Source of the DNA: Archaeoglobaceae archaeon
GTDB taxonomy: Archaea > Halobacteriota > Archaeoglobi > Archaeoglobales > Archaeoglobaceae
NCBI GenBank assembly: GCA_025058735.1
Contig: JANXDX010000006.1
Span: forward strand, 1 to 59,317
Direction: 5' to 3'
DNA: 59,317 nucleotides
The number at the start of each line of letters is the position of its first letter. Position 1 is the stretch's first letter. The position numbers and the translations under genes were made by a program. The notes beneath the pieces were generated by a model. It saw only the letters and a list, made by a program, of their open reading frames with translations. It searched no databases and was not told where the DNA came from. Positions 22,917 to 50,950 of the stretch are shown here, one piece after another.

Positions 22917-23396
22917 CAAATATCGTTTTCGTCATCCAAGTATAAAGTCTTTTCTGTTTCATCTTCGATCAAGAGAGAATAGTTCTTAAGCTAAACGTGG
23001 CCCCCTTCAAAAAATTAAAGTAGAATAAAATGATCGTAACAGAGTTCTCATGTTGTTTCATTAGTGTATTTGGCATAAAACTTGTCGAACTCTATAAAGA
23101 TGAAACTTTCAAGGTTCACTCTGTTAGTGTTAAAGATTAGTGAAGTTCAGCTGATAATTCAATTTTCATGATCGGTTAGATGTTTTAAACTGTAGCTGAT
23201 GTTGAAATCATCGTTACTGCACTGAAAAGAATAAGTAAGCAAATGGATCGACTATGAGCTTTAAAAAATTGCTGTTTACTTTAAAATTTGCGAGGAAATT
23301 GTTTTCAAAAATTTGCTTAAATTAAGTTTGAACGAAATTAAAAATTTGCAGAAAATCTAAAAGTAGAAACATCCACTAAGTTATCTCTATAAAAAT
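22917..23396. other. Gene-free stretch with scattered coding-like fragments
   Basis: No intact gene. Short protein-like pieces appear on both strands, for example a 36-codon plus-strand frame at ~23029 and a helical piece containing DVEIIVTALKRI at ~23195, all broken by stops. It looks like decayed coding sequence. No repeats or mobile-element ends were seen. Confidence 0.35.
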
Positions 23397-23470
23397 CGGG
23401 CCGGGAGGGATTTGAACCCCCGACTGCGGGATTAAGAGTCCCGCGCTCTTCCTGGCTAAGCTACCGGCCC
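23397..23470 (-). tRNA. tRNA-Lys(CUU)
   Basis: 74-nt cloverleaf on the minus strand. Acceptor GGGCCGG/CCGGCCC, anticodon CUU in loop CTCTTAA closed by CGGGA/TCCCG, T loop TTCAAAT, discriminator G, no encoded CCA. Its 5' end is only four bases downstream of the ACA box of the predicted H/ACA RNA, so the two should share one transcript that RNase P would cut apart. Confidence 0.92.
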
Positions 23471-23471
23471 T

Positions 23472-23534
23472 AATTGTAGCTCCGCGAACCGACCCGAGTT
23501 CATGCTTTCTCACACGGGCGTGAGGAGCGGAGCC
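23472..23534 (-). ncRNA. Probable H/ACA-type pseudouridylation guide RNA
   Basis: Single hairpin on the minus strand. The lower stem is GGCTCCGC with GCGGAGCT (seven Watson-Crick pairs plus one G-U), followed directly by ACA (23477-23475). Above it is an internal loop with strands UCCUCACG and UCGGUUC, then an upper stem CCCG/CGGG. The apex has GUGA...UGAAC, whose tandem G-A pairs fit the K-loop bound by L7Ae. The distance from the upper stem to ACA is 14-15 nt, the spacing required for H/ACA guidance. Target not identified. Confidence 0.75.
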
Positions 23535-23552
23535 ATTTATATTTAGAATATC

Positions 23553-23570
23553 GAACATAAAAACTTTGCG
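23553..23570 (-). promoter_or_regulatory. Promoter of the H/ACA RNA-tRNA-Lys transcript
   Basis: A BRE-like CGCAAAG followed by TTTTTATG on the minus strand lies ~25 nt before the H/ACA hairpin. No comparable element fits between the hairpin and the tRNA, which supports one joint transcript. Confidence 0.5.
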
Positions 23571-23870
23571 TTTCTAAAAACTCAAAACTCTAAAAAACAT
23601 AAATAATATATTTTAATTAAAATTAAAAATTTTAAAAATAAAATATTTTTTAATAAAATATATATTAAAATTATTTTCTATAAAAAATTTCAAAGTCGAT
23701 ATCAAATAGTCACCGCTCGACGTTTTCACATCTACTACAGCGTAGCTAAGTGTAGACGAATCTCTAAAATCTTTTTATAATATCATTTTTTAATTTTTAT
23801 TTTTATTTTCGATCTTTGCACAAATAAAAACGAAGAAAAAGTTGTTAAACTTCTTAGATACTGTTGAACA
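23571..23870. other. AT-rich spacer before the Lhr-type helicase gene
   Basis: No gene seen. Long A/T runs occupy 23590-23690. A less AT-rich patch (23700-23765) has short complementary pieces (CTACA/TGTAG) but no convincing RNA fold or box motifs. The helicase promoter should lie in the last ~60 bp. Confidence 0.4.
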
Positions 23871-50495: not shown

Positions 50496-50570
50496 TGGGC
50501 CCGGAGGGATTCGAACCCTCGACCGCCCGGTTATGAGCCGGGCGCTCTAACCAGACTAAGCTACGGGCCC
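50496..50570 (-). tRNA. tRNA-Ile2(CAU), agmatidine-modified type
   Basis: 75-nt cloverleaf on the minus strand. Acceptor GGGCCCG/CGGGCCC, anticodon CAU in loop CTCATAA closed by CCCGG/CCGGG, T loop TTCGAAT, discriminator A. The GGGCCCGUAGCUUAG start and GC-rich anticodon stem are typical of archaeal tRNA-Ile with a CAU anticodon, whose C34 is changed to agmatidine by TiaS so it reads AUA. Distinct from the Met tRNA at 2859. Confidence 0.85.
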
Positions 50571-50587
50571 CTTGTTAAGTTTACCTA

Positions 50588-50600
50588 AATATATATAATC
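50588..50600 (-). promoter_or_regulatory. TATA element of tRNA-Ile2
   Basis: GATTATATATATTT on the minus strand is centred ~25 nt upstream of the tRNA 5' end, between the SRP RNA 3' end and the tRNA. Confidence 0.65.
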
Positions 50601-50624
50601 CTTTTGGTGAGTTTTCATGATCTT

Positions 50625-50935
50625 GGTGGGCACGCCTCGGGTCGATCTGCTAACGTAGCAGCTTAAAACTTCCAGACATCTCCTCCCCGTTCCCCCGAAA
50701 GCGCCGAACGTCTGGGGTTAGCCTGCTCCCTTCCGGGCCTAGGCCGGTCCCCCCAGCAGATGTAGGTAACCTTCCCTCCGGAAAGCTACCTACAACCGCC
50801 GACCCTTCGGGACGAGGATTCTGCAATATCTGGAAGTTTTAAGCCACTACTTTACAGACCTTCCCTCGGCTTCGGCCCCCGCATATCGACGGTTTCGGGT
50901 TACAGAGGACGCCGAACCCCCCGGCCTAGCCCACC
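50625..50935 (-). ncRNA. SRP 7S RNA
   Basis: 311 nt on the minus strand. The ends GGUGGGCUAGGCC...GUGCCCACC pair (archaeal helix 1). The 5' domain with CUGUAACCCGAAA, the helix 8 region with GGAAGGGAGCAGGCUAACCCC, and GGCC-rich stems are all recognisable. Helix 5 contains an AU-rich perfect complement, GCUUAAAACUUCCAGA with UCUGGAAGUUUUAAGC. It scaffolds SRP19 and SRP54 for membrane targeting. Confidence 0.95.
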
Positions 50936-50950
50936 AAAAATAGATTTCCT

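Follow-up and report, generated by a model that had tools for sequence, protein, structure and literature searches.

The close apposition of a hairpin resembling an H/ACA guide RNA and the gene for tRNA-Lys(CTT), on the minus strand of a 59,317-nt stretch of an Archaeoglobaceae genome (hereafter, the window), raises the question of whether both RNAs derive from a single precursor. We consider it probable, at roughly 0.8, that the locus is a dicistronic stable-RNA gene in which a Pab91-type guide and tRNA-Lys(CTT) would be transcribed together, the guide being released by RNase P and directed at 23S rRNA.

The minus strand, read directly from the bases, presents the order GCUCCGC-[UCCUCAC]-GCCCGUG-K-loop-CUCGGGU-[CGGUUC]-GCGGAGC-UACA, followed by AUUA and by tRNA-Lys(CTT). 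The single hairpin occupies positions 23475-23534, with a core at 23475-23533 once a possible terminal G-U pair is set aside. The two strands of its lower stem, GCUCCGC (23527-23533) and GCGGAGC (23479-23485), form seven Watson-Crick pairs, within the 7-9 bp that characterize H/ACA lower stems; of the eight pairs proposed in the initial annotation these seven stand, and the eighth is the possible terminal G-U. The upper stem, which together with the K-loop spans 23492-23519, had been put at 4 bp and is actually longer, comprising a closing G-U pair, CCCG:CGGG, a U-U mismatch and a G-C pair. The proposed K-loop with tandem G-A pairs is present as a UGA...UGA signature, invariant in 13 family sequences (alignment A2), and constitutes a predicted binding site for L7Ae. 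The ACA box (23475-23477), likewise invariant in the 13 aligned family members, lies 14 nt past the upper-stem closing pair, in agreement with the canonical spacing of 14-15 nt first noted and within the 14-16 nt range of archaeal H/ACA RNAs (PMC4652768). The hairpin has a minimum free energy of -25.7 kcal/mol (z = -2.7 against dinucleotide shuffles) and is the top-ranked match to a general H/ACA descriptor in the 59-kb window; the same descriptor, applied to the sequences flanking the genome's 44 other tRNA genes, returned no second hairpin of this type.

An Rfam covariance search of the stretch, of the kind suggested at the outset, matched Pab91 (RF02795) over the full length of the model (33.6 bits, E=6e-5). 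This score falls below the gathering score of 71 bits, so that, judged by its sequence, the hairpin is a divergent homologue or functional equivalent of Pyrococcus Pab91 and no formal Rfam member. A match to snoR136 was also sub-threshold (28.6 bits, gathering score 43) and was dismissed as chance.

A DNA search of 40 relatives located the hairpin away from tRNA-Lys in many genomes. In an alignment of 13 family sequences, none of which has more than one gap, the proposed structure pairs 98.9% of cells, and the compensatory changes anticipated in relatives are present: five pairs are changed on both sides, two of them in the lower stem and three in the upper stem. None of 500 shuffles reached as high a value, and slid versions of the structure lowered pairing to 31-47%. 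When the family was scanned with a covariance model of the guide, 46 of its 55 genomes proved to have a homologue, as did two genomes from another family of the class, each giving a single strong match; in the genome under study (G000) the match is the only one, even at E values up to 10. The named records retrieved by a pattern search belong to Archaeoglobi lineages, one of them being a Mnemosynella record. No match to the guide model was returned for any of the six genomes of genus g4 (G012, G023 and G047-G050), while most other genera of the family have it.

The longer upper stem bears on the choice of guide elements. In homologues the pair adjacent to the pocket is G-U, A-U or G-C, and this variation assigns it to the upper stem, which in turn defines the guides as CUCAC (5', positions 23520-23524, kept in most homologues) and CGGUU (3', positions 23487-23491). 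The required target hence consists of GACCG, or a wobble equivalent, followed by UN and GUGAG. The 23S gene of the organism itself carries GACCGTCGTGAG, in which the match is GACCG-U-C-GUGAG, with bipartite complementarity around the UN over 5+5 positions and one G-U wobble, located in the pairing of CGGUU with GACCG. Within the 3-kb rRNA locus this 5+5 guide matches a single site, with 0.026 expected in shuffled sequence, and it has none on the reverse strand of that locus or on either strand of the 59-kb window; three genus relatives (G001, G007 and G009) carry an identical 23S site. The initial annotation had pointed to CGUGAG in the 23S peptidyl-transferase region, but because the upper stem is longer its pocket was shifted by one base, and its register (CUCACG with UCGGU or UCGGUU) has zero sites in the rRNA locus.

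The predicted pseudouridylation site is the U of GACCGUCGUGAG in 23S rRNA, which we take to be the equivalent of E. coli U2593 by our own count along the E. coli sequence. In P. abyssi, Pab91 acts on 23S U2690(2685), in the peptidyl-transferase region (PMC6138745), and the sequence comparison resolves the predicted target as this known Pab91 site, the equivalent of P. abyssi U2685. Pairing of CUCAC and CGGUU with GACCG-U-C-GUGAG would direct pseudouridylation of a U near the peptidyl-transferase centre, a prediction based on the complementarity and on the published Pab91 experiments in Pyrococcus. The match to Pab91, the covariation, the presence of homologues in most of the family and the 23S target together support the identification of 23475-23534 as a true archaeal H/ACA guide RNA of the single-hairpin type, as originally proposed.

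Compared to its relatives, the hairpin has the U-U mismatch in the upper stem and one additional loop base, and its covariance-model score (78.3 bits) is among the lower ones in the genus. These features would suit a decayed copy, devoid of guide function and retained merely as a tRNA leader. Against such decay, it has an intact lower stem, ACA box and K-loop signature and two intact guide elements, the pairing with 23S rRNA is preserved, and it provides the sole guide match in a genome estimated to be 99.84% complete, all of which makes a mere leader highly improbable and favours a functional guide.

The tRNA search identified 45 tRNA genes in the genome, among which tRNA-Lys(CTT) was found once (23397-23470, minus strand). 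The ACA box of the guide is separated from the 5' end of this tRNA by the four nucleotides AUUA (23471-23474), the distance given in the initial annotation, which had also placed the only fitting promoter upstream of the hairpin. We scored promoters with a 16-base model (consensus gCAAAAAaTTTATAAA) trained on the remaining 44 tRNA genes, each of which carries a BRE/TATA-type element, mostly located at -35 to -41, near -37. Within -60 to -20, tRNA-Lys(CTT) reaches no more than -1.8 bits, whereas all 44 other tRNA genes score 4.3 bits or more, and still 1.3 bits or more in leave-one-out. The sole strong element in the 220 nt upstream of tRNA-Lys(CTT) is the BRE/TATA-type sequence ACGCAAAGTTTTTATG (23556-23571, minus strand; 11.4 bits), which starts 101 nt upstream of the tRNA and 38 nt upstream of the hairpin core; in the H/ACA genes of genus relatives a like element is found at -35 to -37. 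The position in which a tRNA promoter would be expected is filled here by the GC-rich hairpin, leaving tRNA-Lys(CTT) without a promoter of its own, and no promoter was detected between hairpin and tRNA. A T-run immediately 3' of the tRNA (23391-23395) provides a possible terminator. The presence of a lone strong promoter before the hairpin, and of none for the tRNA, strongly implies that guide and tRNA-Lys(CTT) share one promoter and one transcript.

Elsewhere in the window (50496-50936, minus strand), the SRP RNA gene lies 53 nt upstream of tRNA-Met on the same strand, and tRNA-Met keeps its own promoter-like element.

A tRNA occurs within 1 kb downstream of the hairpin in only three of the 46 homologues, all belonging to this genus: tRNA-Lys at 4 nt in G000, tRNA-Lys at 35 nt in G009 and tRNA-Leu(CAA) at 34 nt in G005 (hairpin locus G005:C11:18069-18126). 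Tight linkage is therefore not general among relatives, and G009 and G005 alone come near it. In G009, an 11.0-bit element precedes the hairpin and a 7.8-bit element is found at -41 of tRNA-Lys, while in G005 the element of tRNA-Leu(CAA) scores 7.4 bits; in both genomes the tRNA promoter-like element begins within the ACA tail. The retention of such elements after the hairpin lends some weight to the notion that the two genes in G000 are also expressed separately, with a cryptic tRNA promoter within the hairpin DNA and a hairpin RNA that ends by itself. We regard this as very unlikely, given that the tRNA-Lys score of G000 lies under those of all 44 other tRNA genes, even in leave-one-out, and that the AUUA spacer has no T-run, and co-transcription remains the preferred reading.

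The 4-nt fusion occurs in one assembly among the sets searched, and this assembly is a draft genome in 29 contigs, circumstances that would be compatible with an assembly artefact joining two loci. Yet the junction is embedded in a 59-kb contig, each of the two genes has only one copy, so that no repeat could drive a false join, and the close relative G009 has both genes in the same order and orientation. An artefact is hence extremely improbable, and we treat the fusion as genuine.

In an unrooted four-taxon 23S tree, without an outgroup, G000 and G009 form a group apart from G001 and G007 (37 sites versus 7 and 4), and an A directly following the K-loop is common to the hairpins of G000 and G009 and missing from the other aligned sequences. 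We looked for synteny between the G000 pair and tRNA-Lys loci in genus relatives and found none. The genes on either side of the pair are not the same in G000 as in G009; synteny thus lends no support to common descent of the linkage, and independent origins in the two lineages are possible. The simplest account is that the spacer was lost in the G000 lineage; the arrangement would probably have arisen through loss of the spacer holding the tRNA's own promoter, from genes that were already neighbours.

Further observations concern other members of the genus. In G004 the hairpin lies beside an enoyl-CoA hydratase-like gene similar to that of G005, without the tRNA-Leu(CAA) found there. In G001 and G006, a second promoter-like element, also strong, precedes tRNA-Lys at -101/-102, matching the distance found in the window. 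This coincidence led us to consider a hairpin remnant before tRNA-Lys in these genomes, but no H/ACA hairpin was detected about 40-105 nt upstream of their tRNA-Lys genes (L002 and L004). The similarity between the tRNA-Lys leaders of G000 and G001 was equalled in 1 of 300 mononucleotide shuffles, and G006 has a different strong hairpin in the stretch upstream of tRNA-Lys; a remnant is only suggested by these sequences and is best taken as a lead.

The data outline the following pathway for the pair. Transcription would start just before the hairpin, from the element at 23556-23571, and end after the tRNA. Folding predictions for the joint precursor give a hairpin and a cloverleaf that form independently, joined by a short single-stranded linker. 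RNase P, cutting at the 5' end of the tRNA, the predicted cleavage site being the end of the AUUA spacer, would yield tRNA-Lys together with a guide RNA whose 3' end, four bases past ACA, may then be trimmed. L7Ae, Cbf5, Nop10 and Gar1 would bind the guide; the genome encodes Cbf5, L7Ae/eL8, Nop10, Gar1 and RNase P RNA. Release of the guide 3' end by RNase P is deduced from the position of its normal cut. Trimming of sRNA 3' ends is plausible, and within a single transcript the guide end could instead be generated by a different endonuclease or through exonucleolytic trimming, RNase P serving only to finish the tRNA. We deem this unlikely, since RNase P RNA is present and its normal cut falls 4 nt after ACA, making a further endonuclease unneeded, and we retain RNase P as the candidate releasing enzyme. 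According to PMC4245976, archaeal RNase P and H/ACA particles both have L7Ae as a subunit. It is conceivable, though rather doubtful, that RNase P has become the obligate maturation enzyme of this guide, that the supply of a guide modifying the peptidyl-transferase centre is tied to that of the only tRNA-Lys(CTT), and that L7Ae, as a component of both particles, meets one precursor.

The guide itself is of a known kind, and the novelty lies in the gene arrangement. Like Pab91 of Pyrococcus, it is a single hairpin with a K-loop and an ACA box, with guides CUCAC and CGGUC/CGGUU, directed at the same 23S target in the peptidyl-transferase region; it differs from the Pyrococcus RNA in its sub-threshold score, in its lower-stem sequence and in lying 4 nt from a tRNA. 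Archaeal dicistrons of tRNA and C/D box sRNA are known from N. equitans (tRNA-Val-sRNA8), I. hospitalis and T. tenax (PMC3491384, PMC7994747), and there too a single precursor contains the guide RNA and the tRNA, one end of the guide being produced by tRNA processing. In those dicistrons, however, the C/D RNA lies downstream of the tRNA and is freed by tRNA 3' processing (RNase Z being named for N. equitans), whereas here an H/ACA RNA lies upstream and release by RNase P, an enzyme that N. equitans lacks, is proposed; the pair does not belong to that class. Plant dicistronic tRNA-snoRNA genes, as they are cited in PMC3491384 and PMC7994747, also place a tRNA and a snoRNA under one promoter, but with the tRNA first, a C/D snoRNA second, release by RNase Z and eukaryotic transcription. 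In P. abyssi, the Pab21-snoR9 transcript, a longer transcript of stable RNAs, similarly begins with an H/ACA guide, although the partner there is a C/D guide in place of a tRNA (PMC4652768). No report of an H/ACA RNA preceding a tRNA was found in the open-licence literature searched.

If correct, this reading would widen the known range of tRNA-guide RNA dicistrons, adding the H/ACA class and a guide position 5' of the tRNA, and RNase P would gain a role in guide RNA maturation. It would also provide a series for dicistron formation, from separate genes, through neighbours 35 nt apart with two promoters, to a 4-nt fusion with one promoter. This series stands in a small-genome lineage, and would illustrate how such dicistrons may form.
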